A stretch of 64,000 nt of DNA from Curvibacter soli. GTDB taxonomy: Bacteria; Pseudomonadota; Gammaproteobacteria; Burkholderiales; Burkholderiaceae_C. Positions 959 through 57,388 of this stretch are shown here, piece by piece. Position numbers and translations under genes: made by a program. The stretch covers positions 69,908-133,907 of the forward strand of contig NZ_JARGEN010000014.1 in NCBI RefSeq assembly GCF_029211125.1, given 5' to 3'. Positions within the stretch are counted from its first letter, which is position 1. The number at the start of each line of letters is the position of its first letter. The notes beneath the pieces are model-generated. The model had not been told where the DNA came from and did not search any database. It saw only the letters and a program-made list of their open reading frames with translations.

Positions 959-1667
959 ATCGGCATAGGGGGCAGCCTTCATAGGCTGCACCCCTGCCAC
1001 ACCACCCGGCATGCGGGTCCGCACCGGGCGGTTCGAGAGCTTGAGGTCAGAGCAGCCTGGGCACCCCCAGGCAGGTTCTCTCTCGTCAGCGCCGCTTCCA
1101 GCAGGCCACCAGTGCCCGCCATCTGCTTTGCCGACCCCGTGCCCGGGTGTTCACGCGGCGGGCCGCTGGCTTCGTCGCTGACAGGATCACGCGCGGCTTC
1201 ACCGCGCGCTACGCCCGCCCGCCCGCATCGCTGCGGCATCTGACGCATGGCCTTTGACATCACACGTGTCCTCGGTCACTCACTCTCGTTTGGTCCTTCG
1301 TCCTTTTGGTCCTGCCTCAACGGCCCCCGACTCGGGCTACTACGACCTCTGCTGACTTCTCGCTCCGGCAGCAACCGTCAGGCTTTCACCCACAAGGCGA
1401 GATCTCCCCGGGTAAGGACACACTCCTTCGCTGCACAACCGCCGGATCTACGCCACTTCGCCTTGATCACAAGAGCTTCGCGGTTCATGGCCCGCTCGCC
1501 CTGCTCGGCAGCGCCTTCTATCCGGTTCTTGTTCATCGGCTCGCAGCTTCGCTCCACGCTTCCTCCCCACACTCGGTCGCCCTCATGCAGTTGCGCTTCG
1601 CTTCGTTCGCTGTGATCAACTTACGGCGGGACTTGCACCCGCAGGAGTGCGCCCGTGCCGGGCACAC
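959..1667 (-). mobile_element. Group II intron relic (class C-like) behind the ompA terminator
   Basis: Read on the minus strand, the element begins with GTGTG, which fits the group II 5-prime consensus GUGYG, followed by the domain I signature GGGTGCAAGTCCCGCC. It ends with a domain V-like hairpin, in which ACCGCCCGG pairs with CCGGGTGGT and encloses the CGC triad typical of class C, then a domain VI-like stem and the 3-prime end CCTATGCCGAT. It starts 5 bases past the T-run of the ompA terminator, which is the insertion preference known for class C introns. At 709 bases it is much shorter than an intact intron of about 1.9 kb because most of the encoded protein is missing. Boundaries were read by eye from consensus ends. 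Confidence 0.72.
1072..1263 (-). pseudogene. Truncated intron-encoded reverse transcriptase/maturase (N-terminal stub)
   Basis: About 64 codons read MMSKAMRQMPQ... through LLEAALTRENL, which resembles the extreme N-terminus of group II intron-encoded proteins, where a segment of the form LLE..LTRENL precedes the first reverse-transcriptase block. After that segment the frame passes straight into the intron's domain V/VI sequence and stops at 979-981. All reverse-transcriptase, maturase and endonuclease domains are therefore deleted, and the product cannot be active. Assignment rests on remembered family sequence and on position inside the intron. Confidence 0.6.
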
Positions 1668-2590: not shown

Positions 2591-5227
2591 ATGACCCAGT
2601 TCGCCAAAGAAACCCTGCCCATCAGCCTTGAGGAGGAGATGCGCCGCAGCTACCTCGACTACGCCATGAGCGTGATCGTGGGCCGCGCCCTGCCGGACGC
2701 TCGCGACGGCCTCAAGCCCGTGCACCGGCGCGTACTCTTTGCAATGCACGAGCTGAGCAACGACTGGAATCGCCCCTATAAAAAATCCGCCCGCATCGTG
2801 GGCGACGTAATCGGTAAATACCATCCGCACGGCGACAGCGCCGTTTATGACACGATTGTGCGCATGGCCCAGGATTTTTCCCTGCGCCATATGCTCGTGG
2901 ACGGCCAGGGTAATTTCGGCTCCGTCGATGGCGATAACGCGGCAGCCATGCGTTATACGGAAATCCGACTGGCCAAAATCGCCCACGAAATGCTGGCCGA
3001 TATCGACAAGGAAACCGTCGACTTCGGCCCCAACTACGATGGCAGCGAGAAAGAGCCGCTGGTGCTGCCCAGCCGGCTGCCCAACTTGCTGGTCAACGGC
3101 TCCGCCGGCATCGCGGTGGGCATGGCCACCAACATTCCTCCGCACAACCTGAGCGAGGTCGTGGATGCGTGCCTGCACATGCTCAAGAACCCCGACGCGA
3201 CCATCGACGAGCTGATGGAGATCATCCCGGCGCCCGATTTCCCCACCGCCGGCATCATCTACGGCGTGGGTGGCGTGAAGGAAGGCTACCGCACGGGGCG
3301 CGGCAAGGTGGTGATGCGCGCGAAGGTGCATTTCGAGGACATCGACCGCGGCCAGCGCCAAGCCATCATCGTCGACGAGCTGCCCTACCAGGTCAACAAG
3401 AAGACGCTGCAGGAGCGCATGGCCGAACTGGTGCACGAGAAGAAGCTCGAAGGCATCAGCCACATCCAGGACGAATCCGACAAGTCAGGCATGCGTCTGG
3501 TCATCGAGCTCAAGCGCGGCGAAGTGCCCGAGGTGGTGCTCAACAACCTCTACAAGCAGACCCAGCTTCAGGACACTTTCGGCATCAACATGGTGGCGCT
3601 GGTGAACGGCCAGCCACGCCTGTGCAACCTGAAGGACCTGGTGTGGGTTTTCCTGCAACACCGGCGCGAGGTGGTGACCCGCCGCACGGTGTTCGAGCTG
3701 CGCAAGGCGCGCGACCGCGGCCACGTGCTCGAAGGGCTGGCGGTGGCGCTGGCCAACATCGACGAGTTCATCCGCATCATCCGCGAATCGCCCACGCCGC
3801 CGGTGGCCAAGGCCGAGCTGATGGCCCGCGCGTGGGACAGCACCCTGGTGCGCGAGATGCTCACCCGCACCCGCACCGACGGCGGCGTGGTCAACGCCGA
3901 CGACTACCGCCCAGAGGGCCTGGACATCGCCTACGGCATGGGCCGCGATGGCCTGTACCGCCTGTCAGACACGCAGGCGCAGGAAATCCTGCAGATGCGC
4001 CTGCAGCGCCTCACGGGACTGGAGCAGGACAAAATCGTGGCCGAATACAAGGAGGTGATGGCCGAGATCGAAGACCTGCTCGACATCCTCGCCCGGCCCG
4101 AGCGCGTCTCGCTCATCATCGGCGACGAGCTCACCACGCTCAAGAACGAATTCGGCCAGACCAAGGTCGGCGCACGGCGCAGCGAGATCGAGCACAGCGC
4201 GCAAGACCTCTCCACCGAAGACCTCATCGCGCCCACCGACATGGTGGTCACGCTCAGCCACAGCGGCTACATCAAGAGCCAGCCGCTCAGCGAATACCGG
4301 GCGCAAAAGCGCGGCGGGCGCGGCAAGCAGGCCACGGCCACGAAGGAAGACGACTGGATTGACCAGCTCTTCATCGCCAACACGCATGACTACATCCTGT
4401 GCTTCTCCAACCGGGGGCGACTCTACTGGCTCAAGGTGTGGGAGGTGCCGGCGGGCTCGCGCGGCTCGCGCGGGCGGCCCATCGTCAACATGTTCCCGCT
4501 GCAGGAAGGCGAAAAGATCAACGTGGTGCTGGCGCTCACCGGCGAGTTCCGCAGTTTCCCCGCCGACCACTACGTCTTCATGGCCACCAGCATGGGCACG
4601 GTGAAGAAGACCGCGCTCGACGAGTTCAACAACCCGCGCAAGGCCGGCATCATTGCAGTGAACCTCGACGAAGGCGATTACCTCATCGGCGCCGCGCTCA
4701 CCGACGGCAAGCACGACGTGATGCTGTTCTCCGACGGCGGCAAGGCCGTGCGCTTCGACGAGAACGACGTGCGCCCGCTGGGCCGCAACGCCCGCGGCGT
4801 ACGCGGCATGACGCTGGAAGACGGCCAGGGCGTGATCGCCATGCTGGTGGCCGAGGACGAAACCCAGGCCGTGCTGACTGCCACGCAGAACGGCTACGGC
4901 AAGCGCACCCCGATCGGCGAATACACCCGCCACGGGCGCGGCACCAAGGGGATGATCGCCATCCAGCAGAGCGAGCGCAACGGCAAGGTCGTGGCCGCCA
5001 CGCTGGTGCGCACGGACGACGAGATCATGCTCATCACCGACACCGGCGTGCTGGTACGCACCCGCGTGGCCGAAATCCGCGAACTCGGCCGTGCCACGCA
5101 GGGCGTGACGCTGATCGCGCTGGACGACGGCGCCAAGCTGAGTGGCCTGCAGCGCATCGTGGAGAACGACGCCCACGTGGCTGGCAACGACGCCGAGGGC
5201 GACGATGCGCCCACGGATGCCGCCTGA
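2591..5227 (+). CDS. gyrA: DNA gyrase subunit A
   Basis: The 878-residue subunit introduces negative supercoils together with GyrB. The catalytic tyrosine is Tyr122 in AAAMRYTE. The quinolone-resistance region reads [12 protein letters not shown], with Ser83 and Asp87, the wild-type quinolone-sensitive residues in E. coli numbering. The C-terminal beta-pinwheel includes the GyrA box-like segment QKRGGRGKQ near residue 580. The start ATG at 2591 follows the ompA-gyrA divergent gap; an upstream in-frame ATG at 2567 would add eight residues that the family lacks. It leads a rightward run with serC, pheA, tyrA and aroA-cmk, a standard Comamonadaceae arrangement. Confidence 0.97.
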
Positions 5228-35455: not shown

Positions 35456-35890
35456 TCATTTCCGCCCCCTCCACCACACCTGGGAGGCCAGATCGTCGTC
35501 CTGCTTGCGCTGCCGGACGGCGCTGGCCTGCTGCGCATCCTTCTGCCGCTGGGCCAGCACCAGGCCGAGCACTTCCTTGCGCCGGGCCGCAGCGGCCAGC
35601 GCATGCTGCGCGGTCGCCGTTTCGGCCTCGTGCGCCCCGAGATCCTGGCGATGGCTGTCCGCCATGTCGAGCATCGCCTGCTTGTAGTCGCCGCAGTTGG
35701 CAGACAGGGCCAGCGGCAGGCTACCGCTGGCACCGCTTTCGTGCGCCATCTGCTCGATGCGCTCTATGTTGGTGCGGTAGCGGTCGCGCATGGCCCGCTT
35801 GCCTGCCAAGTCGGCCTGCAGCCGATCGACTTCGCGCTCGCGCAAGTCCACCAAGCGGCTCAGGCCGAAAAACCGGTTCTGGTCGTTCAT
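35456..35890 (-). CDS. fliJ: Flagellar export protein FliJ
   Basis: The 144-residue protein is a long, charge-rich coiled coil (RLVDLREREVDRLQADLAGKRAMRDRYRTNIERIEQM...), as expected for the FliJ stalk that connects the FliI ATPase to the FlhA gate. The start at 35890 overlaps the fliI stop (ATGA). Earlier in-frame starts would lie inside fliI. It closes the fliEFGHIJ unit. Confidence 0.84.
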   Translation of the reverse strand: MNDQNRFFGLSRLVDLREREVDRLQADLAGKRAMRDRYRTNIERIEQMAHESGASGSLPLALSANCGDYKQAMLDMADSHRQDLGAHEAETATAQHALAAAARRKEVLGLVLAQRQKDAQQASAVRQRKQDDDLASQVWWRGRK

Positions 35891-37215
35891 GCGGTGGCTC
35901 CTTCGGAGGCCAACAGCTCCTGGAGCTGGGCCACGGTGCGATCCAGGGGAGCCGCTTCGCGCACGCCCTGGCACAGGAACGCCTCGATGCGGGGATAGAG
36001 CCGCACGGCCCTGTCCGTGGCCGGGTCGGTGCCGGGCACGTAAGCGCCCAGCGGCAGCAGGTCGCGCACCTGGGCATAGCGGGAGGAAAGCTCGCGCAAT
36101 TCACGCGCGGCGCGCTGGTGCGCCGGGTCGGCCACCTGCGCCATGCACCGGCTGACCGACGCTGCCACGTCGATGGCGGGGTAGTGCCCGCGCTCGGCCA
36201 GGGCGCGCGACATGACGATGTGGCCGTCCAGGATGGCCCGGGCCGTATCGACCACCGGGTCCTGCTGGTCGTCGCCCTCGGCCAGCACGGTGTAGATGGC
36301 GCTCATGCTGCCCTGCGGGTTCTCGCCATTGCCGGCGCTTTCCACGAGTTGCGGCAGGATGCTGAAGACCGACGGCGGATAGCCGCGCGTGGCCGGCGGC
36401 TCGCCCAGCGCCAGAGCGACCTCGCGGCGGGCCATGGCATAGCGCGTGAGCGAATCCACCAGCAGCAGCACATGCCGGCTCTGGTCGCGGTAGTAGGCGG
36501 CAATCGCATGGCACAGCTCGGTGGCGCGCAGGCGCATGAGGGGTGATTCATCCGCCGGTGCGATCACGACGACGGCGCGGCGCAAGCCTTCGGGTCCCAG
36601 CGACATGTCGATGAATTCGCGCACCTCGCGGCTGCGCTCGCCGATCAGTCCTACCACCACCACGTCCGCGACCGTCTGGCGGGTGATCAGACCCAGCAGC
36701 ACGCTCTTGCCCACGCCGCTGCCGGCCATCAGACCCACGCGCTGCCCACGGCCCAGCGTCAGCAGGCTGTTGATGGCGCGCACGCCCACGTCCAGCGTGT
36801 CGCGCACAGGTGCCTTGCGCAAAGGGTCCACGCGGCGCGGCTGGATGTCCAGGGCATGGTCGCCGCCCAGGCGACCCAACCCGTCCACGGGCTCGCCCAG
36901 TCCATTGACCACGCGCCCCAGCCATTGCGGGCCGATGCGCAAGTCGCCGCGCGCCTGCTGCGGCAGCACGCGGGCGCCGGTGGACAGGCCATCGGCCTTC
37001 TTCAGCGGCATGAGGAAGGACACCTCCTCGCGAAAGCCCACCACCTGCGCGTCGATCCATTCGCCGGACGCGGTTTCGATGCTGCAGCGCTGTCCCGTGT
37101 ATAGCGGACAGCCCACGCTTTCGAGCAGCAGCCCCGACGCACCCACGAGGCGCCCAGTGGGCGTGGCCACGGGCACCGCAGCCAGGTCGAGCCGGCGAAT
37201 GACGGCACCGATCAT
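35887..37215 (-). CDS. fliI: Flagellum-specific ATPase FliI
   Basis: The 442-residue ATPase energises export. The Walker A motif AGSGVGKS is at residues 164-171, with the Walker B region HVLLLVDSLTRYAMARREVALALGEPP and the family motif GYPPSVFSILPQLVESAG. The start at 37215 has GAGGAGG 7 bases upstream and overlaps the fliH stop. Length fits the FliI/YscN family. Confidence 0.96.
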   Translation of the reverse strand: MIGAVIRRLDLAAVPVATPTGRLVGASGLLLESVGCPLYTGQRCSIETASGEWIDAQVVGFREEVSFLMPLKKADGLSTGARVLPQQARGDLRIGPQWLGRVVNGLGEPVDGLGRLGGDHALDIQPRRVDPLRKAPVRDTLDVGVRAINSLLTLGRGQRVGLMAGSGVGKSVLLGLITRQTVADVVVVGLIGERSREVREFIDMSLGPEGLRRAVVVIAPADESPLMRLRATELCHAIAAYYRDQSRHVLLLVDSLTRYAMARREVALALGEPPATRGYPPSVFSILPQLVESAGNGENPQGSMSAIYTVLAEGDDQQDPVVDTARAILDGHIVMSRALAERGHYPAIDVAASVSRCMAQVADPAHQRAARELRELSSRYAQVRDLLPLGAYVPGTDPATDRAVRLYPRIEAFLCQGVREAAPLDRTVAQLQELLASEGATA

Positions 37216-37973
37216 TGCGCCACCTCCTCGTGCACGGCGGGCTGGCGGGCCGAATCGGCCGCGGTATGCATGGGCGGCGCGGCTTCCGGCTTGGTATCCG
37301 GCGTGGGTTCGCCGGATGTCGCGGGGGATTCCTGCAACTGGTTGTTGATTTGCTCCATGCAGGCCACCAAGCGCTGGCTGCAGCCTGCATCGGCCTCGCG
37401 ATGCCCGGCCTTCACCCGGCATTCGCCCGATTCGAGACGCGCATCGGGTACCAACTCCCAATTGCACACGCGCTCCGGCGCGATGTCCTTGATGCGCTGC
37501 AGATCGCCCGGGTTCATGAACACCTCGATGCGCTGCGACGTGGGCGGCATGGTCGCCAGCGTCTCGTCCACCAGAGCCAGTATCTGCACCGGCTGCAAAG
37601 CCAGCTCGCAACGGATGACCTGGCGCGCGACCTTGGCCACCAGATCGACCACCTCCTTGCGCAAGGCTGCCTCGAAATCCTGCTGCTGCGCCGCCAGGCT
37701 CGTACGCATGGCATCGATGGGCGCGGCCAGTTCCTCAAACGCGGCCTGCGCCTCGGCACGACCTTCCCGCAAGCCCTGCGCCCTGCCGTCATGGAGCCCC
37801 TGCGCATGGCCTTGCGCGCGCGCAGCATCCACGCCGCTGGCATAGCCGTCATGGTAGCCGCGCTCCATGCCGCGCTGGAAGCCGTCGGCATGGGATGACC
37901 CCGCGATGCCGTCCGCACCGGACGCCAGGCGCTCCAGGGGCGGAAAACGGTGCGGACGCAGCGGCTGCTTCAT
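37212..37973 (-). CDS. fliH: Flagellar assembly protein FliH
   Basis: The 253-residue protein has the FliH-type glycine-repeat helix in the first half (FQRGMERGYHDGYASGVDAARAQGHAQGLHDGRAQGLREG) and the C-terminal domain (VAKVARQVIRCELALQPVQILALVDETLATMP...RIEVFMNPGDLQRI). It docks FliI to the C-ring. A Pro/Ala-rich tail follows residue 215. It overlaps both fliG and fliI by ATGA junctions. Confidence 0.9.
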   Translation of the reverse strand: MKQPLRPHRFPPLERLASGADGIAGSSHADGFQRGMERGYHDGYASGVDAARAQGHAQGLHDGRAQGLREGRAEAQAAFEELAAPIDAMRTSLAAQQQDFEAALRKEVVDLVAKVARQVIRCELALQPVQILALVDETLATMPPTSQRIEVFMNPGDLQRIKDIAPERVCNWELVPDARLESGECRVKAGHREADAGCSQRLVACMEQINNQLQESPATSGEPTPDTKPEAAPPMHTAADSARQPAVHEEVAQ

Positions 37974-39004
37974 TCGACGACCGCCTCGGCAAAGAGCTGC
38001 ACCTCGATCTCGCCGGCATCGGCCAGCGCCTTCACCTCGGCCATGATCTCCTCGCGCGCCTGCTCGATGCGGCTGCGCGGCATGGGGCCGGTGCGGCGCA
38101 GCGTGTCCTCGAACGCCTGGGCCTGCCGCCGTGGCATGGACTGCAGGATCGCGTTGCGGATGGCAGGCTCGGCACCCTTGAGCGCAATGGCCCATTGCTC
38201 CATGGGCACCTGCTCGATGATGCGTGTGATGACGGCCTCGGACTGGCGCGAGAGGATGAAGAAGTCGTACATGCTGACCTCGATCTCCGACACAACCTTG
38301 GGATCGCGCGCGCGCAGTTGTTCGATAACTTCCTGCCGATTGCCAGGCAGGCGGTTGAGTATCTCGGCCACGTGGCGCACGCCTTCCACGCTGGTGCCCT
38401 GCAGGCCCAGCGTCTCCAGGCAGCGGTCCACGAGTTCGTCGAGTTCGACCAGCAATTCGTGGTCCACCTCCTTCAGGTGCGCCACGTGGTAGAGCAGCAG
38501 GTCCCGCCCCTCGGTCGGGAGCGCATCCAGCAGGCTGCTCGCCATGGCCGGCGGCAGGAAGACCATGAACACCGCCTGCATGCGCACGTGCTCATGCACC
38601 AGCCGCTCGGCCAGCCATTTGGGCGATGACCACTGCAGCCGCGCCATCTTGGGCCGGATGGCGTCGCCATAGATGCTGTTGAGTACGCTCTCGGCGATGT
38701 CATTGCCCAGCGCCAGGTCGAGTGACTTCTTCAGGTAGGAGCGCGACGCGCCATGCACGCCGCTTTGCTCCCGGTAGTCGTCGAAGAAACACTGCAGCGC
38801 CGTCTTGACCGTTTCTACCTTGATGCCGCTCATGCGCGACATCACCTGGGTGACCTTCAACAGTTCGTCGCGCGACAGGCAGCGCAGCACGGCGGCGGCA
38901 GGCTCCTCGCCCATGCTCAGCAGCACGATGGCCGCCTGCTCCAGCGGGCTCAGGTTGTTGCCGTCGGGAATGGGCGGGCTTTCCGCAAAGTTGTCGTCAG
39001 GCAT
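37970..39004 (-). CDS. fliG: Motor switch protein FliG
   Basis: The 344-residue rotor protein has the FliG N-terminal domain (LSPLEQAAIVLLSMGEEPAAAVLRCL), the middle domain and the C-terminal torque domain (WAIALKGAEPAIRNAILQSMPRRQAQAFEDTLRRTGPMPRSRIEQAREEIMAEVKALADAGEI), with the alternating charges that face MotA. It overlaps fliF by 8 bases, a known FliF-FliG coupling. Confidence 0.94.
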   Translation of the reverse strand: MPDDNFAESPPIPDGNNLSPLEQAAIVLLSMGEEPAAAVLRCLSRDELLKVTQVMSRMSGIKVETVKTALQCFFDDYREQSGVHGASRSYLKKSLDLALGNDIAESVLNSIYGDAIRPKMARLQWSSPKWLAERLVHEHVRMQAVFMVFLPPAMASSLLDALPTEGRDLLLYHVAHLKEVDHELLVELDELVDRCLETLGLQGTSVEGVRHVAEILNRLPGNRQEVIEQLRARDPKVVSEIEVSMYDFFILSRQSEAVITRIIEQVPMEQWAIALKGAEPAIRNAILQSMPRRQAQAFEDTLRRTGPMPRSRIEQAREEIMAEVKALADAGEIEVQLFAEAVVE

Positions 39005-40679
39005 TTTTCTGTACCCACTGTTTGACCACTTCGGCCACGCGCTCCGACTCCTTGATGGACAGCACGCGCAGGTGCTCCACCATCACGTCCACCGGTGAGC
39101 CCGGCGGCGGCAACTCGTAGTTCTCAAGCAGCGGCGCAACACCTGCGCCCTGTGCCGTAATGCCCAGACCCGCAGGCAGCGCCGCCGCTACGCCCGGCAC
39201 GGGCAACGGCGGCCTGTCTGCGGACGCCATCCCGGGGATCGGCGTCCAGCGCTGCTGGGCCAGCTTCACCAGGGGCCGCGCGATGAAAAGGAAGGCCAGG
39301 AGTGCCGCCAGCACATATCCCAGCCATGCGGCGGCGTCAACGATGTTGTCGCGCCGCTGCCACCAGGGCACGAGCGCAGGCACCGCGGGAAACGCCATCG
39401 CCGACACGACGAGGCTGTCGCCGCGCTGCGCGTCGATGCCCAGGCCGCCCTGCAGCAGGCGTTCGACATCCGCAATCTGTGCCGCAGTCCAGGCGCCGCC
39501 GCCGGGCGCGGCGGCGTTGTTGAGCACCACGGCCACGTTCATCTTGTTGAGCCGCCCGCGGCTGCGCTTGATCTGCGTGACCGTGCGGTCGTAGGAGAAC
39601 TGGCGCGTCGTGGCATTCTTCTGGGCCGTGTTCGCCTCGGGCGGCACCGCGACATTTCCCGCCTGGGGGTTGTTCGCCGCATTCGCGGCGGCGTTCGCGG
39701 GGTTGGGGGCGGATACGTTCACGGGACGGTTGCTCAGCGAACCCGGCACGCCGAGCGCGATCTGGTCGCGGGCCAGTTCCTCGCGCGTGGCTTCGTTGGT
39801 GACGCGCGGCGTGTCGCCATACTGCTCGCGCGTTTCCTGCACGCGGTCGTTGTTCACGTCGGCGGTGACACTGGCCTTGAAGTTGCCTTCGCCCAACACG
39901 GGGGCAAGCAGATCGCGGATGTTCTGGCGCGTCTGCTCTTCATAGCGCCGACCGGCCTCGCCGCCCTGCCCCGCCTCGAAGCCATCGGTCAGATCCACGC
40001 GCGCGGACAGCAGGTGCCCGGCCTGGTCGACCACGCTCACGCGCTGCGGCTCCATGCTGGCCACGCTGCCCGCCACCATGTTGATGATGGCTGCGATCTG
40101 CTCCTGCTCCAGCGAACGCCCCGGCTTGAGGCCCAGCACCACCGAGGCCGAACTTTTCTCACCATCCATCGTGACGAACGATGACGAGCGCGCGATGGCG
40201 AGATGCACGCGCGCGGCGTCCACCGCGTCGAGCGACATGATGCTTTGCGCCAGTTCGCCCTCCAGGCCGCGCCGGAACCGCACGTCCTGCACGAACTGGC
40301 TTACGCCCAGCGGGTCGTTGCGATCCATCAGCTCCAGCCCCGCGGGCAGACGGGCTGTGACGCCCTTGGCCGCCAGCAGCATGCGGGTCTTGCCGAGCAT
40401 GGATTCAGGCACCAGCACCTGGCCGCTGTCTGGATGCACGCGGTACGGAATGCCTTCGGCGTCCAGCGTGGCCATCATGTCGGCCGCCGCGACTTTTTCA
40501 CGCGCACCGAAAACAGGCTTGTATGCAGACTGGTCGCGCCACAGGTACATGAGCGCCAGGGCCGTCAACGCCACGGCCAGCACCAACAGCGGCACCATGC
40601 TCTTCATCAGGCCCGGCGGCAGCCGCGGCACCATGGCCGCAGGCCGCAGGTGCGACAGCATGGAGTTCAACGCCGCCAT
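38997..40679 (-). CDS. fliF: MS-ring protein FliF
   Basis: The 560-residue protein has an N-terminal membrane helix (MVPLLVLAVALTALALMYLW), the ring-building motifs including RVHLAIARSSSFVTMDGEKSSASVVLGLKPGRSLEQEQIAAIINMVAGSVASM, and a C-terminal membrane helix (AAAWLGYVLAALLAFLFIARPLV) followed by the FliG-binding tail. It forms the MS-ring and the housing of the export gate. It is the second gene after fliE. Confidence 0.95.
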   Translation of the reverse strand: MAALNSMLSHLRPAAMVPRLPPGLMKSMVPLLVLAVALTALALMYLWRDQSAYKPVFGAREKVAAADMMATLDAEGIPYRVHPDSGQVLVPESMLGKTRMLLAAKGVTARLPAGLELMDRNDPLGVSQFVQDVRFRRGLEGELAQSIMSLDAVDAARVHLAIARSSSFVTMDGEKSSASVVLGLKPGRSLEQEQIAAIINMVAGSVASMEPQRVSVVDQAGHLLSARVDLTDGFEAGQGGEAGRRYEEQTRQNIRDLLAPVLGEGNFKASVTADVNNDRVQETREQYGDTPRVTNEATREELARDQIALGVPGSLSNRPVNVSAPNPANAAANAANNPQAGNVAVPPEANTAQKNATTRQFSYDRTVTQIKRSRGRLNKMNVAVVLNNAAAPGGGAWTAAQIADVERLLQGGLGIDAQRGDSLVVSAMAFPAVPALVPWWQRRDNIVDAAAWLGYVLAALLAFLFIARPLVKLAQQRWTPIPGMASADRPPLPVPGVAAALPAGLGITAQGAGVAPLLENYELPPPGSPVDVMVEHLRVLSIKESERVAEVVKQWVQKNA

Positions 40680-40719: not shown

Positions 40720-41058
40720 CTACACCTGCAGCTTGATGACTTCATCCACCGCGCCGACGATCTTGTTGCGCGCCTGCATGAGCATCGAGAACGACAGGCT
40801 GGCCTCCTGGCTGGCCAGCATGGCACCTACCATGTCGTCGCTGCGCCCGCTGTCGACATCCGCCACCAGATCGGCCGCCGCCTGCTCCTTGCCATCGACG
40901 CGGCGCACCGCCGCCTGCATGGCCGCCAGGAACCCCCCGTTCACGGCGCGCCCCGCCAAGCCATCGTCCGCCGCAGACGGCATCAGCGCCACGGCGGTGG
41001 AATCGATCTGTGCTGCGGCGGCCCGGATCGACGCCGCCATCCCGTTCTCTATATCCAT
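40720..41058 (-). CDS. fliE: MS-ring/rod adapter FliE
   Basis: The 112-residue protein ends with the FliE motif DDMVGAMLASQEASLSFSMLMQARNKIVGAVDEVIKLQV. It joins the MS-ring to the rod. The start at 41058 is chosen for length and family fit. It is the first gene of the leftward fliEFGHIJ unit. Its long upstream region carries a cyclic-di-GMP-I riboswitch on the same strand, so its mRNA probably has a leader of at least about 440 bases. Confidence 0.9.
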   Translation of the reverse strand: MDIENGMAASIRAAAAQIDSTAVALMPSAADDGLAGRAVNGGFLAAMQAAVRRVDGKEQAAADLVADVDSGRSDDMVGAMLASQEASLSFSMLMQARNKIVGAVDEVIKLQV

Positions 41059-41225
41059 GAAGCACCATCCATTTCCATACGAAGAGCGATGCGCGCCATT
41101 TACTACCACGCAAAACAGTGCACACCGACAAGATAATCCGCCATTGGCCAGCAATAATATGCCCGTGCTTATCCAAATGCGCATTAATAGAATGCGCGAG
41201 GGTTTTGCGGGAATACGATTGCACC

Positions 41226-41250
41226 GGCAGCCCCAGGCCTAGGGGCTGCC
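41226..41250 (-). other. Hairpin in the fliE leader, possible expression platform
   Basis: GGCAGCCCC and GGGGCTGCC form a perfect 9-bp stem with a 7-base loop. There is no T-run on either strand, so it is not a classical terminator. On the minus strand its 5-prime arm contains GCAGCCCC, exactly complementary to GGGGCTGC at the 3-prime edge of the upstream riboswitch aptamer. Other hairpins in the leader are at 41340-41358 (CTTCGTC/GACGAAG) and 41291-41312 (CTTGAA/TTCAAG). Confidence 0.5.
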
Positions 41251-41409
41251 CTGACAGATCAGGGGGAGGAATGCATGCAGGGTGACCCTTCTTGAAGTTA
41301 CAACTGTTCAAGAGCAGCAGCGTGCGTGTGCCGGGTCGCCTTCGTCCGACAGACGAAGTGAGGAGAGACGAAGATCCTGCCATCAAGCACTCTGGCAGTG
41401 GTTCAGTCG

Positions 41410-41500
41410 GTCCTGCAGCCCCGCTATCGTGATCCGAAGATCCTTAGACCGGAAGCTTTGCGACCCCGGCTTTCGCTCGGGTGTGCCCTATGGTTGAAGT
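41410..41500 (-). promoter_or_regulatory. Cyclic-di-GMP-I (GEMM) riboswitch aptamer upstream of fliE
   Basis: Read on the minus strand, the sequence contains AGGGCACACC, a GAAA tetraloop (AGCGAAAGC), GGGGTCGCAAAGCTTCCGG, TCTAAGGATC-TTCG-GATC and GATAGCGGGG in that order and spacing. This follows the class I c-di-GMP aptamer (for example Vibrio cholerae Vc2: AGGGCAAACC, GAAA, GACGCAAAGCCUCCGG, CCUAA, GGUAGCGGGG). The TTCG-capped second stem is complete and the tetraloop receptor segment is recognisable. The outermost P1 helix is weak by eye. The only gene downstream on this strand is fliE, 352 bases away. The rest of the fliE-fliM gap (41059-41776) contains no gene that I can support. Confidence 0.82.
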
Positions 41501-41776
41501 GAAGATACATGGTGTATCAAGCTGCGTCAACAAGATTTGTTGCAATTCCGACGAATTGAATCAATTTTTCAAGATGCCCTACCTGATGGATCACCGCGCA
41601 GGCTTCGCCCTGTCGAATCCCGGAATGGTCACTGGCAAATAAAACACTTGCATTGAATTCGTCTATGCTGCAGCATAATCCAGTTGAAAGTCGCGAATGC
41701 GATTTCTTCGGAGGGCCTGCGGCATTTATCCCGCTGCACTATTGCCTGAAAGAATTTTTCATCACGAACATACGCC

Positions 41777-42715
41777 ATGGCGAATGACACACCCAGGCCC
41801 GCGCCGCGCCGGCGGTACGCACTCCATGCGGGAAGCATTCCACGCGTGCTCGACGCCCGCACGCTAGGCCGTCCGGTGCATCTGCTGCCGGCCTTCGCGG
41901 CCCAGTTGGGCGACCGGCTCTGTGCATGGTTCGACGCCCGCCTAAACCGCCGCTACCGCGCTGCGTTCACGCTTTCCGAGGTCGTCGTCCGGCACGGCGA
42001 CCATGCCGAGCGCCACCCGCCCCTGCCCCCGCAGTGGCAGGTGTTCGGCTCGGACACCGGACGCCTGGGCGTGTTCATAGACCGCCCCGTGCTGCTGGCC
42101 ATCTTCGGCTACCGCTATGGCCTGCCCGACCCCGGCACCCCGCGGGCGGTGGACGACATGCCCGCCCAGGAAGCCGCCGAACCGAAGGAGCCCGGCCACA
42201 CGCAGACCGAGGAACGCCTGGCCGCGGCCTTCGGCCTGCAACTCGCCCAACTGCTTGCCGACTGCATCGAGGCCCCCGGCCCCGTTGCCGACGCAGGCTC
42301 TGCGGGGCCCGCGCACCCCTTCGTGCTGCTGCCCACCACGGTCATGGAAGACGGTGCGTGGACCTTCCATGCCGAGATTCGCGACGCATCGCGCAAGGCC
42401 CACGGGCGCCTGTGGCTGTGCCTCGACGACGCATGGATGACGCGCCTGCTGCAGCAGCTCGCGCGCCCGCGCCGCGCCTGGCCCGCACCCAATGGCGCCC
42501 AGCCGCTCGCACATGCCATGCAGCTCACGATGCTGGCCCGGCTGCTGCACAAGGAAATGCCGCTGGGGCAGTTGCTCGACCTGCGCGTGGGCGACGTGAT
42601 ACCGGTGACCCTGGGGCCCACCGAGGTGCTCATCGACGATTCGCGGCTCTTCACCGCTGCGGTCGCCGAACACAAGGGCAAGTTGTGCCTGACATCATTT
42701 GAAGACGCGGAGTGA
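41777..42715 (+). CDS. fliM: Motor switch protein FliM, lateral type
   Basis: The 312-residue protein precedes fliN and has a C-terminal SpoA (FliM/FliN) domain: LHKEMPLGQLLDLRVGDVIPVTLGPTEVLIDDSRLFTAAVAEHKGKLCL. The middle domain is recognisable only weakly. The N-terminus MANDTPRPAPRRRYALHAG lacks the CheY-binding motif (consensus LSQxEIDALL) found in polar FliM. It would form the C-ring between FliG and FliN. It starts the rightward fliMNPQR-flhBA unit; its promoter should lie in the gap shared with fliE. Confidence 0.8.
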   Translation: MANDTPRPAPRRRYALHAGSIPRVLDARTLGRPVHLLPAFAAQLGDRLCAWFDARLNRRYRAAFTLSEVVVRHGDHAERHPPLPPQWQVFGSDTGRLGVFIDRPVLLAIFGYRYGLPDPGTPRAVDDMPAQEAAEPKEPGHTQTEERLAAAFGLQLAQLLADCIEAPGPVADAGSAGPAHPFVLLPTTVMEDGAWTFHAEIRDASRKAHGRLWLCLDDAWMTRLLQQLARPRRAWPAPNGAQPLAHAMQLTMLARLLHKEMPLGQLLDLRVGDVIPVTLGPTEVLIDDSRLFTAAVAEHKGKLCLTSFEDAE

Positions 42716-52980: not shown

Positions 52981-54090
52981 TCAGGCCGCGAGCTTCTTGT
53001 GCCGCGACAGGTGTTCCGCGAAGGCCTGCGTCAACGCCGGCAGCACCTGTAGCGCGTTGCCGACGATGCCGTAGTGCGCGAAGTCGAAGATGGGCGCATT
53101 GGGATCGGTGTTGATTGCGACGATCACGTCGGATGCCTCCATGCCCACGCGGTGCTGAATGGCGCCCGAGATGCCGGCGGCGATGTAGAGCTTGGGCCGT
53201 ACCGTCTTGCCGGTCTGCCCGACCTGGCGGTCGGCTTGCACCCAGCCGGCCTGCACGCAGGGGCGGGTGGCACCCACTTCGCCGCCGAGCACGCGCGCCA
53301 ACTCGAACACCAGCTTGAAGTTTTCCGGGTTTTTCAGGCCTTTGCCTCCGCTGACGATCACATCGGCGTATGGCAGGTTGATCTTGTCGTTGCTGGCGTC
53401 GGCGATGAAGTCGAGCAGCTTGGTGACGATCTGGCTCTCGACCATGCCTAGCGTGTCCTGCACGATCTCGCCGGTGCGGTTCGCCTGCGGCTGCGGCATG
53501 GCCAGCACGCGCGGGCGCACCGTGGCCATCTGCGGGCGGTAGGCCAGCGTCATGATCGTGCACAGCAGCGAGCCGCCGAAGGTCGGCCGCGTGGCGGCCA
53601 ATGCGCGCGATGTCGGATCGATGTTGAGTTCAGTGCAGTCGGCCGTGAGGCCAGTGAGCAGCGTGGTTGCCACTGAGCCTGCAAGGTCGCGGCCCATCGA
53701 GGTTGCGCCCAGCAGCAAGATTTCAGGCTGATACTTGTTGACCAGATCGGTGAGGCCCTTGGTGAAAGGTTCGTTGCGGTACCCCGCGAGCACCGGGTCG
53801 TGCACGATGTAGGCCTTGTCGGCGCCGTAGGTGAAGGCCTCGGCGGCGAATTTCTCCAGTGGCTCGTCCGTGCCGCCGAGCACCACTGCACCAACGGTGC
53901 TGCCGAGCTTGTCGGCCAGCTTGCGGGCCTCGCCCAGCAATTCCCACGAAACACTGTGCACATGGCCGCGGTCATGCTCGATGAAGACCCACACCCCCTT
54001 GTAGACCTTCAGGTGTTCTGGCAGTTCGAGGTTGCGGCCTCGGCCGGCGGGACGCTTGACCGGCGCTGCGGTGGAAGGAGTTTCACTCAT
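52981..54090 (-). CDS. fixB: Electron-transfer flavoprotein alpha subunit FixB
   Basis: The 369-residue ETF-alpha protein has an N-terminal domain ([35 protein letters not shown]) and the C-terminal FAD-binding domain ([65 protein letters not shown]). An Arg/Pro-rich extension of about 25 residues precedes the domain. It pairs with FixA. The start at 54090 overlaps the fixA stop by ATGA. Confidence 0.95.
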
Positions 54091-54935
54091 GGCAGTTCTT
54101 TCATCAGCAAGTCGGCTTCGAGCGTCGGGTGGCGCGTGAAGACTTTCTGTAGCAGGTTGAGCGATACGTCCCGCAGGCTGGAGGTTTCGATGTCGAGCAT
54201 CTCGGCCTTCTCGCTGCGCGGCGTCGGCCCGAACACCTTGCTCACCACGGTCGGGGAGCCCTTGAGGCCGATCTTCGTGAGGTCTTCGATGCCGGCCTGT
54301 TCCTTGTTCCATTGGCGCACCGGGTAGCCGGCCGCGTGGATCATCGCGGGCAGCGCAGCAAAGCGCAGTTCGTTGGTGTTCTCCAGCATCGTGATCAGGC
54401 AGGGCAGGGCGGTCCTGAGCACCTGCACGCCGCCTTCGGCGCGTCGCTCGACCGTGATCGTCCGGTTCGTGAGATCGGTATCGACGATGCGTGAAACGTA
54501 AGTCAGCAACTGCAGCCCCATGCGCTTGGCGATGCCGGGGCCGACCTGCGCTGTGTCGCCGTCGATGGTCTGCTTGCCGGTGAAGACGATGTCCACTGCC
54601 TGTTCTCTGGCGATCTGGCGAATGCCCGCTGCCAGCGCGTAGGAGGTGGCCAGCGTGTCGGCACCGGCAAAGGCGCGGTCGGTCACCAGCACCGCATCGT
54701 CGGCACCGTAGCTGATGCACTTGCGCAGCGCATCCTCGGCCTGCGGCGGGCCCATGCACAGCATGGTGACCTTGCCGCCGAACTTGTCCTTGAGCCGCAG
54801 CGCTTCTTCGAGCGAGAACAGGTCATAGGGATTGACGATTGCCGGGACACCCTGGCGCATGATGGTGTTGGTCACCGGGTGGACGCGAATCTGCGCCGAG
54901 TCCGGTACCTGCTTGATGCAGACGACGATGTGCAT
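54087..54935 (-). CDS. fixA: Electron-transfer flavoprotein beta subunit FixA
   Basis: The 282-residue ETF-beta protein begins [46 protein letters not shown], the usual FixA opening, and contains [33 protein letters not shown]. With FixB it bifurcates electrons from NADH. It lies 14 bases after nifW, within the nif operon. Confidence 0.96.
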
Positions 54936-54949
54936 GGCGGTCTCCTCTT

Positions 54950-55288
54950 TCAGGCCGCCACACGCGCCGGCATGGTGGCCTTCAGGCTGTCGAGTGAAAC
55001 GTGCTGTCGGCCGTCGGCGTCCTGGAATACCTTGAACACCTTTTCCTGGGCCGGCGTCGATTTCACGAAGTCACCATAGGCCCGCACCAGCAGCGCGCGG
55101 TAGGTGGTGAACATCTGCAGCTCGTCCGCCTGCGCCAGTGGGGTTTCCTGGCGGATGTACTGGAAAAAGCGCTTGAGGATGTGCAGCCGGCTGACGTTGA
55201 GCACCTTCTGGTCGAAGGGTATGGCAAAGAACTGCAGAAAGTCCTCGGCCGAAGAGAGCGCCTTGAGTTGTTGAAGGAAGTCTTCCAT
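54950..55288 (-). CDS. nifW: Nitrogenase-stabilizing/protective protein NifW
   Basis: The 112-residue protein matches NifW: MEDFLQQLKALSSAEDFLQFFAIPFDQKVLNVSRLHILKRFFQYI and later YRALLVRAYGDFVKSTPAQEKVFKVFQ. NifW associates with nitrogenase MoFe protein and helps it mature or resist oxygen. It lies 6 bases after the cysE-like gene and 14 before fixA. Confidence 0.95.
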   Translation of the reverse strand: MEDFLQQLKALSSAEDFLQFFAIPFDQKVLNVSRLHILKRFFQYIRQETPLAQADELQMFTTYRALLVRAYGDFVKSTPAQEKVFKVFQDADGRQHVSLDSLKATMPARVAA

Positions 55289-55294
55289 CGTTGC

Positions 55295-56107
55295 TTACTC
55301 CTCAATGGAGGTTTCAAGAAGGGTTTCGAAGCCGGGTTCGGTGCAGCGGCCGTCGCAGGCGCCGCAAGCCGCTTCGGGCGTGGCGATGGGCAGGGCAGCC
55401 TGTGACTGCTGCGTCCGCTCCAGTTGCGCCACCCGCTCGAGCAGGCAGGCAATCGCCTTGCCGACGGGGTCGGGGATCAGGTGATGGTCGAGGTCGAAGC
55501 CGTGCGTGGTGCGCCGCCGCGGCGCCACCACGCGCCCTGGAATGCCCACCACGGTGGCGTCGGCAGGCACCGGGTCGATCACCACGGAGTTCGCTGCGAT
55601 GCGTGCGCGGTCTCCGACCAGGATGGGTCCGAGGATCTTGGCGCCAGCGCCGACCACCACGCGGTCGCCCAGCGTGGGGTGGCGCTTGCCGGCGGTCCAG
55701 GTCGTCCCGCCCAGCGTCACGCCATGGTAGAGCGTCACGTCCTGGCCGATCTCGGCGGTCTCGCCGATGACGACGCAGGACCCATGGTCGATGAAAAAGC
55801 GCGCCCCGATGCGGGCACCGGGGTGGATGTCCACCTGCGTCAGCCAGCGCGCGAAAAAGGATATCCAGCGCGGCAGGTAGCGCCAGCCGCGGCGCCAGAG
55901 TGCATGCGCCATGCGATGCAGCGCGATCGCCTGCACACCCGGATAGATGGTCCACGCCTCGAGCAGGCTGCGTGCCGCCGGGTCGCGTTCGAGCACGCAG
56001 CGCACGTCCCCGCGCAACAATGTCCACCAGGAAGGCCGGCGTTCGTCCTGTGCGCTGACAGGCAATGCGGCCGAGGCTTCGGTTTTCGAGTTCATGTCGG
56101 ATCTCAT
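55295..56107 (-). CDS. cysE: Serine O-acetyltransferase, nif-associated (NifP/CysE)
   Basis: The 270-residue protein has a left-handed beta-helix of hexapeptide repeats ([41 protein letters not shown]...) typical of CysE; the HGSCVVIGE and YHGVTLGG segments carry active-site residues. It makes O-acetylserine for the cysteine used by NifS in Fe-S cluster synthesis. Embedded between nifV and nifW, it is the gene called nifP or cysE1 in other diazotrophs. A Cys-rich tail (ACGACDGRC) follows the enzyme domain. The start overlaps the nifV stop. Confidence 0.9.
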
Positions 56108-57243
56108 GCCGTCACGCAGTCGCCGTGCGCAGCGCGCAGGAAGCGCCGCAGGTCGTCGGGGGTGGGCTCCCGCTTGGTGCGCATTGCGTGGTCGCGGATC
56201 TGCGCAAGCAGCCGGCCCGTGAGTGCGTCGTCGTCGAGCGCAACGCCCAGCGCACCGTAGGCTTGTCGCACGGCCTGCGAGCCTGAATGCTTGCCCAGCA
56301 CGGTGCGCCGCTCGCGGCCCAGTTCCGCGGGGTCGAAGCTTTCATAGGTCGAGGCGTTCTTGAGCAGGCCGTCGATGTGGATGCCGGACTCGTGGGTGAA
56401 GACGGCTTCACCGACGATGCTCTTGTTGAAGGCCACTCGGCGGCCCGATGCCTTCTCCACCATGCGGGAGATGGCCACCAGCGCCTGTGTCTGCACGCCG
56501 GTGTCCGCATGGTGCAGGTGACGAACGCCCATCACGACTTCTTCCAGCGCTGCGTTGCCCGCGCGCTCGCCCAGGCCGTTGATGGTGGTGTTGGCGTGCG
56601 TGGCGCCGGCGCGCAGTGCTGCCAGCGTGTTGGCAGTGGCCAGGCCGAGGTCGTTGTGAGCGTGGATCTCGATCTCCATGTCGACCGCGTCGCGCAGATG
56701 CGCGATGGCCTCGTAGGTGGTAAACGGATCGAGCACGCCCAGCGTGTCCGCGAAGCGCACGCGGCTGGCGCCACAGGCCTCGGCGCGCCGGGCGACCTGG
56801 GCCAGGAATTCACCCTCGGCGCGCGAGGCATCCTCGGCGCCGAACGAAATCTTGCGGCCGGTGCTGGCCGCGGCCTCGATCACGCGCGTGACCTGTGCCA
56901 GCACCCATTCACGCGACTGGCGCAGCTTGTGGCGCAGGTGGATGTCCGACACCGACATCGAGAGATGAATGATGTCGGCTTTGCAGCGCATGGCGCTCGC
57001 CAGGTCGGCATCGGTCAGGCGGCCCCAGACCATCAGGGAAGCATCGAGTTGGAGAGCGGCGATGGCATTGATGCAGTCGATCTCGGCCTCGCCCATGGCC
57101 GGGATGCCGATCTCCATTTCCCTGATGCCCGCAGCGGCGAGTGCCGTGGCGATGGCGCATTTCTCATCGACCGTGAATGCCACCCCGGCGGTCTGCTCTC
57201 CGTCGCGCAGCGTGGTGTCGTTGATGATGGGATGCGATGACAT
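56104..57243 (-). CDS. nifV: Homocitrate synthase NifV
   Basis: The 379-residue enzyme condenses acetyl-CoA and 2-oxoglutarate to homocitrate, the organic ligand of the FeMo-cofactor. The DRE-TIM motif [17 protein letters not shown] is at residues 7-23, and [40 protein letters not shown] provides metal ligands. AAGGA lies 9 bases before ATG 57243. It is the first gene of nifV-cysE-nifW-fixABCX and is preceded by a sigma-54 promoter and NifA site. Confidence 0.94.
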
Positions 57244-57269
57244 GGTGGGACGTCCTTTCCCTCCATGAC

Positions 57270-57284
57270 GCAAAGTGCATGCCA
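57270..57284 (-). promoter_or_regulatory. Sigma-54 (-24/-12) promoter of nifV
   Basis: On the minus strand the sequence TGGCATGCACTTTGC matches the RpoN consensus TGGCAC-N5-TTGC with the correct spacing and one change. The expected start of transcription lies about 12 bases downstream, leaving a short leader of about 16 bases with an AAGGA site before the nifV ATG. Confidence 0.85.
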
Positions 57285-57388
57285 CTGTCCGCAGGTGCCG
57301 GATGACGCCTGAAATACGGGCTGCAAGGTCCGTTTGTCGGGTATCAGGCCGCCATCACAGGCACGGCGGTATCGGAAGCTGTCGGGAA

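Follow-up and report, generated by a model that had tools for sequence, protein, structure and literature searches.

The GEMM-I riboswitches Vc2 and Vc1 of Vibrio cholerae, whose aptamer family is that of the element described here, differ from it in their genes and in their platform, and to our knowledge no riboswitch of the Vc2 or Vc1 type heads a lateral flagellar operon. The control of a flagellar operon by a class I riboswitch is itself already known, as the flagellar riboswitch Cd1 of Clostridioides difficile is a transcriptional OFF switch according to the accessible part of PMC9262584, while Bc1 of Bacillus thuringiensis joins a class I aptamer to a long expression platform with two typical rho-independent terminators (PMC11218506, in the excerpt available). 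With Cd1 the present locus shares the aptamer class and its position immediately before a series of flagellar genes, and with Bc1 the combination of a class I aptamer with a long platform. It departs from Cd1 in that the flagellum is a lateral, second one of a beta-proteobacterium and the fliE operon comes first, and in a leader start codon that stands at a fixed distance in most loci; no intrinsic terminator common to the 34 leaders compared here was found, which sets them apart from both systems. The Flag-2 locus of Escherichia coli is alike in gene order, with flhB-fliR-Q-P-N-M divergent from fliE-F-G-H-I-J, but carries the gene of a sigma-54-domain protein where the riboswitch lies here. 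A description of a c-di-GMP-I riboswitch for a lateral flagellum, or from within this bacterial group, was not found in the literature searched, which covered few subscription journals and was in part available as excerpts.

The window analysed is a stretch of 64,000 nucleotides from Curvibacter soli (contig NZ_JARGEN010000014.1, positions 69,908 to 133,907), the features of which are collected in Table 1. A first-pass annotation had placed a class I c-di-GMP aptamer on the minus strand at 41410-41500, and the covariance-model check that it proposed bears this out: in a cmscan of the whole 64-kb window, RF01051 (c-di-GMP-I) matched 41497-41411 on the minus strand with 66.0 bits against a gathering cut-off of 35 (E 1.1e-10), the alignment running uncut over model positions 1-87 of 87. 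The element is an ordinary member of the known aptamer class. With permissive filters, RF01051 was the sole match listed in 41040-41560 and no other Rfam family reached E<=1, two weaker overlapping matches from the clan of RF01051 having been set aside; the whole-genome scan (3.36 Mb) returned this aptamer as the single RF01051 match, and 0 of 14 control genomes were matched. The conserved elements that had been read in order on the minus strand, namely AGGGCACACC, GAAA, GGGGTCGCAAAGCTTCCGG, TCTAA, a UUCG-capped stem and GATAGCGGGG, were all found, and the GNRA-capped P2, the GGUCGCAAAG junction and the P3 hairpin are present in a covariance alignment free of non-standard pairs, with the outer stem P1 apparently weak, by eye, in the window and in the related genome G300.

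Among 18 loci of the family, the window included, the tetraloop and junction columns of the aptamer are invariant, as are columns G13, G14 and C15, which we take, by our own column assignment, to be G20-C22 of Vc2. The window thereby carries, like Vc2 itself, a G at the G20-equivalent position, and so do all 18 loci. This position of Vc2 is a selectivity factor for the dinucleotide, as stated in the accessible part of PMC9262584. From the aptamer class and this G the element would be expected to bind c-di-GMP, and its ligand is likely present, since 24 GGDEF matches above the Pfam cut-off (25 listed) in the genome make it very likely that c-di-GMP is produced. In two Ideonella loci (L074 and L151), TT replaces AG directly before the G20-equivalent and CCGAA stands opposite, so that the outer stem may be rebuilt.

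The aptamer sits within a 718-bp gap between the divergent genes fliM (41777, plus strand) and fliE (41058, minus strand), and 352 nt separate its end from the fliE start codon, which was taken as 41058, with in-frame starts also existing upstream. As had been proposed, fliE is the first gene downstream and heads fliEFGHIJ, the NCBIfam matches all lying on the aptamer strand, with fliE, fliF, fliH, fliI and fliJ over their curated cut-offs and fliG matching its own family under the cut-off (172.4 of 226.7 bits). On the divergent side fliM, fliN, fliP, fliR and flhB were recognized, FliN, FliP and FliR above the cut-offs and FliM and FlhB under them. The assignment to a lateral-type flagellum is upheld by the FliH of the cluster, which passes the lateral-type family NF009925, and by the order fliMNP(Q)R-flhBA divergent from fliEFGHIJ, as in lateral and Flag-2 systems; two FliH matches occur in the genome, by which the lateral cluster would be a second flagellar system. 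The annotation had also remarked that lafK is missing and that the riboswitch occupies the gap, and indeed no sigma-54 activator of the LafK type lies between fliM and fliE and PF00158 has no match in the cluster. Nine PF00158 matches exist in the genome, one of them on the contig of the cluster; this one scores a weak 26.7 bits and lies some 18 kb away, near 59.2-59.5 kb. Beside the lateral cluster, window positions 52981-57285 contain a nifV-type homocitrate synthase gene (TIGR02660, over its cut-off), cysE and two electron-transfer-flavoprotein genes, which suggests that these may be nitrogen-fixation genes; window positions 1293-1586 (minus strand) match group II intron domains twice, once strongly (107 bits) and once barely over the cut-off of 35 (36.9 bits).

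Table 1. Coordinates of the features of the riboswitch and the lateral flagellar cluster in the window
Feature	Position	Strand	Evidence or remark
-35-like hexamer TTGACG	41525..41530	-	17 nt upstream of the -10
-10-like hexamer TATCTT	41502..41507	-	overlaps the GATACA..TGTATC palindrome; predicted transcription start about 41495
c-di-GMP-I (GEMM-I) riboswitch aptamer	41411..41497	-	RF01051, 66 bits, cut-off 35
Putative expression platform	41277..41410	-	hairpins CTGCCA/TGGCAG and CTTCGTC/GACGAAG, then GCGACCC (by eye)
Putative leader ORF MHSSP, five codons	41259..41276	-	AAGG 10 nt before the ATG; +135 after the aptamer
Untranslated spacer to fliE	41059..41258	-	GC 0.51 against 0.68 in genes (last 183 nt counted)
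fliE, first gene of the downstream operon	40720..41058	-	TIGR00205, 58.1 bits, cut-off 30
fliF	38997..40679	-	TIGR00206, 194.5 bits, cut-off 129.75
fliG, lateral type	37970..39004	-	TIGR00207, 172.4 bits, below cut-off 226.7; 89% identity with Paracidovorax anthurii
fliH, lateral type	37212..38195 (ORF as listed; match residues 75-290)	-	NF009925, 228.4 bits, cut-off 192
fliI	35887..37611 (ORF as listed; match residues 133-566)	-	NF005535, 741.1 bits, cut-off 715
fliJ	35456..35974	-	TIGR02473, 52.1 bits, cut-off 50.45
fliM, first gene of the divergent operon fliMNP(Q)R-flhBA	41777..42715	+	TIGR01397, E 2.9e-7, 29.9 bits, below cut-off 219.6

In a sample of 399 genomes from the same family as the window, RF01051 was found anywhere in 115 and a lateral-type FliH (above the NF009925 cut-off) in 23, and these 23 were rescanned for the aptamer with fliE, fliF and fliM mapped. 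Of the 22 contiguous loci, 18 have the aptamer in the fliM-fliE gap, on the strand of fliE, and the count becomes 19 of 23 with G115, whose locus is split over contigs and whose other contig also reads fliM-aptamer-fliE-fliF. All 19 lateral loci outside the genus g69 therefore carry it, and the four without it all belong to g69, where the gap extends to about 2.6 kb with ORFs of one kind in all four (L080-L083) and where R1, an aptamer model based on the 18 family loci, found no match either. Pfam, applied to L080 alone of the four, identified two proteins with a receiver, one of them a BetR protein and the other a histidine kinase. Because these relatives hold other regulator genes in the gap, the riboswitch that stands in for lafK in the window is one solution among several. 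At least two FliH-family matches were counted in 18 of the 19 aptamer-bearing genomes, the exception being G083 (86% complete) with one.

A search of genome contigs with a FliG alignment gave 220 relatives, the best 80 of which were kept, and R1 matched 19 of these 80 loci (20 matches). They come from Paracidovorax anthurii, Azoarcus, Zoogloea, Candidatus Dactylopiibacterium, Rubrivivax, Ideonella, Aquincola, Aquabacterium, Roseateles and metagenome-assembled genomes without genus, and fall in two orders, Burkholderiales and Rhodocyclales. The 61 loci without the aptamer include five that lack sequence upstream of fliF and one that lacks fliM, and in 11 checked loci of the other 55 nothing in Rfam exceeded its cut-off; the Oxalobacteraceae loci among the best 80 are devoid of it. 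In a FliG tree (FastTree, 100 rows, 93 of them labelled, 34 with and 59 without the aptamer; weak support on 36 of 95 inner branches), the aptamer label demands 3 changes versus 27.8 for shuffled labels, which is compatible with a single gain followed by two losses, the one in Oxalobacteraceae and the other in a single Aquabacterium. The window, P. anthurii and G300 are placed together with a local support of 100, the FliG proteins of the window and G300 being 89% identical. One Rhodocyclaceae metagenome-assembled genome (L133) bears two nearly identical aptamers, at 3079-3170 (minus) before fliE and, divergently, at 3519-3610 (plus) before fliM, and the leader ORFs of both start alike, with MIEPAVSSKP. 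As for the other c-di-GMP-I riboswitches of the family (30 loci), three of ten checked downstream ORFs are Peptidase_S8 (subtilase-like; L002, L006 and L027), one is methionyl-tRNA-synthetase-like and six have no Pfam match.

The sequences upstream and downstream of the aptamer were compared in 34 leaders, which comprise the 18 family loci and 16 of the 19 named loci, with L145, L123 and L132 (apparent doubles of G365, G077 and G379) and G115 left out. Directly before the aptamer, the pattern TTGnnn-16/18-TAnnnT is present in 22 of the 34 leaders, the expectation by dinucleotide shuffling being 0.38, and the -10 of these 22 starts 18-20 nt (20 nt in the window) before the G20-equivalent. This sigma-70-type promoter at a fixed distance argues strongly for transcription starting a few bases before the aptamer, the RNA being predicted to begin with it. 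Farther upstream, a TGTGA-N6-TCACA palindrome that would be CRP-like by resemblance was found with at most two mismatches in 12 of 34 leaders (1.08 expected), in place of which the window and G300 carry a GATACA..TGTATC palindrome at the -10. Control of the early operon, i.e., the fliE operon, by c-di-GMP, as the first-pass annotation had suggested, is thus supported as a reading, because the aptamer is conserved in Burkholderiales and Rhodocyclales and the predicted promoter abuts it. Two further promoter candidates were discarded: a sigma-54 promoter before fliE showed no consistent site (1 of 34 leaders, 0.6 expected), and a downstream sigma-70 promoter occurred in 6 of 34 leaders with 4.8 expected.

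Between aptamer and fliE the distance grows from the 352 nt of the window to at most 694 nt across the 18 loci, the start codons being author-chosen. In 21 of 34 leaders, an ATG preceded by a Shine-Dalgarno (SD) sequence falls at +120-160 from the aptamer, and other 40-nt windows have 1-7 (denominators 19-34). The putative ORFs, the listing of which counts the second L133 aptamer too (n=35), as does the pairing test described below, are short and mostly dissimilar, with MHSSP in the window, MSPC in G300 and MNxxxLV in four Zoogloea-type leaders, and two Ideonella leader ORFs have 57 residues and a C-terminus in common. No SD-preceded start was found in six of the 34 leaders (L067, L068, L071, L089, L126 and L085), the first four of which nonetheless possess an ATG at about the same place. 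In the window the GCGACCC of the putative platform is complementary, by eye, to GGGTCGC in the aptamer, and the single-strand fold of 41240-41499 is not exceptional (z -1.58, with 11 of 200 shuffles equally good). The window leader has no second Rfam element, and a candidate for one in the L067 leader was dropped, its match lying far under its cut-off. A C-minus-G scan of the leaders displayed no uniform Rho-like stretch, and a MAFFT alignment of whole leaders was too gappy for use beyond the platform.

Toward fliE the conservation fades in several pairs, since L067/L071, L102/L105 and L065/L141 keep high identity until about +220 to +260 and low identity from there up to fliE, while the very close pairs L086/L087 and L068/L069 show little drop along the leader. 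The length of the leader, which ranges from 352 nt to some 700 nt, and a spacer that looks neutral in several pairs lend themselves to a reading that we regard as decidedly improbable, in which the riboswitch RNA would be a short transcript of its own (a trans RNA, a sink for c-di-GMP or a regulated leader peptide), with fliE transcribed mainly from its own promoter in the spacer. Sigma-28-like sites inside the leader, found with at most one mismatch in four of 34 (L073, L066, L126 and L146; 0.1 expected) and under a looser rule in six of 34 (1.3 expected), speak in its favour, and RNA of a c-di-GMP riboswitch is reportedly abundant in Bdellovibrio. Yet the window leader has no sigma-28 site within three mismatches, a result to be read with the reservation that the same consensus, at up to two mismatches, finds no site in window 29-52 kb, flagellin gene included, and may thus not suit the sigma factor of the cluster; besides, no sigma-54 or sigma-70 site is common to the spacers, and the aptamer stands constantly before fliE in two orders. 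Given the sigma-28-like sites in the spacers of a few relatives, transcription there may get round the switch, and the riboswitch may act early or exert a part of the control and not be its sole agent.

A shared structure was delineated in one clade, where fifteen leaders of Roseateles and relatives have about 107 nt in common after the aptamer. A hand-drawn four-helix structure pairs 97.1% of 342 cells against 26-43% for slid partners, a comparison biased in its favour because the structure was read from the same sequences, and nine of its pairs change on both sides versus a shuffled mean of 4.6, with 0 of 500 shuffles reaching nine. The platform model R2 scored strongly (E<=2.1e-15) in 14 of 40 genomes, always at the fliM-fliE locus, 13 of which supplied model rows and match by construction, G115 being the one that did not; the next-best E across the 40 genomes was 8.5e-5. 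Nothing convincing was obtained with R2 at 30 other c-di-GMP-I loci (L002-L031), the best match (E 0.07) being on the other strand, and at the leader position R2 did not recognize the window, G300, G077, G182, G379 or the Rhodocyclales leaders. The four-helix platform of the sister clade was hence set aside for the window, R2 having no match there. As R2 is blind to the window and to several clades, platform types appear to differ between clades, that of the window being apparently known from the window itself and, loosely, from G300.

The lack of recognition by R2, together with the apparently weak outer stem in the window and G300, would also accord with the aptamer being an inherited remnant without function in the lineage of the window. 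This is highly improbable in our judgment, for the identity between the window and G300 amounts to 64-87% in three 40-nt windows on the aptamer versus 22-61% elsewhere in the gap, and the predicted promoter is kept in both.

The best explanation, which we hold to be probable, is that the fliEFGHIJ mRNA of the lateral-type flagellum begins at its 5' end with the c-di-GMP-I riboswitch, which exerts its control through the leader ORF and read-through. RNA polymerase, in all likelihood, would start at the sigma-70-type promoter a few bases before the aptamer, and the binding of c-di-GMP would set the folding of the next 130-160 nt and the ribosome start at the short leader ORF, a gating role that is proposed because the position of the start codon is fixed. 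Where ribosomes fail to start, the transcript may be lost in the spacer that precedes fliE, with Rho-dependent termination or decay as the likeliest cause. High c-di-GMP would thereby turn the operon OFF, and no MS ring, switch or export ATPase would be made in sessile cells. The opposite sense, an ON switch in which c-di-GMP would promote the lateral operon, e.g., upon surface contact, seems unlikely to us, although lateral flagella serve surfaces. Both signs exist for this aptamer type (PMC9262584, accessible part), but high c-di-GMP usually accompanies a nonmotile lifestyle (PMC6366702, in the portion available), and the fold computations do not decide the sense. We lean toward OFF at high c-di-GMP because of the flagellar switch of C. 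difficile, as given in the available text of PMC9262584, and of general c-di-GMP biology.

The fold computations, which asked whether the platform folds in a way exclusive with the aptamer, came out weak or negative. In most leaders the aptamer core and the platform pair about as well as in shuffled sequences, which counts against the proposed mechanism, with two of 35 leaders ranked at 5 or fewer of 100 shuffles (median 33), and the competing-fold test was only weakly positive, with a median rank of 8 of 30 over 34 leaders and 6 of 30 for the window. When the aptamer fold was forced, the predicted SD accessibility rose in one leader, fell in three and stayed within 0.1 in 24, of 28 in total. 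Masking of the SD as a general rule was abandoned, the predicted accessibility having no common direction; SD hairpins were seen by eye in Rhodocyclales leaders and were not returned by the consensus fold. An anti-aptamer was likewise rejected as a proven mechanism in view of ordinary duplex energies and the weak competing-fold result, and is kept as a possibility.

A broader scenario is put forward tentatively, and we would sooner doubt than assert it: in the common ancestor of numerous lateral flagella of beta-proteobacteria, a riboswitch with its own promoter may have taken the position of LafK, with a new kind of platform in which a leader ORF at a fixed distance, and neither a terminator nor the ribosome site of fliE, would gate read-through, a platform which in one clade would be built on the conserved four-helix RNA, and both divergent operons in L133 would have come under duplicate riboswitches.

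Cells of this lineage probably decide the building of the lateral flagellum directly by RNA, because the aptamer heads the predicted message and has been kept in many related beta-proteobacteria. If this is true, c-di-GMP would act on the mRNA to start the second flagellum, with a dedicated transcription factor bypassed. With its path from riboswitch to leader ORF, the layout would make it possible to test how an output acts over a long range where a terminator is lacking. Meanwhile, a single locus that holds, depending on the lineage, a riboswitch, a sigma-54 activator or BetR/histidine-kinase regulators would provide a natural set for the exchange between RNA and protein regulators.
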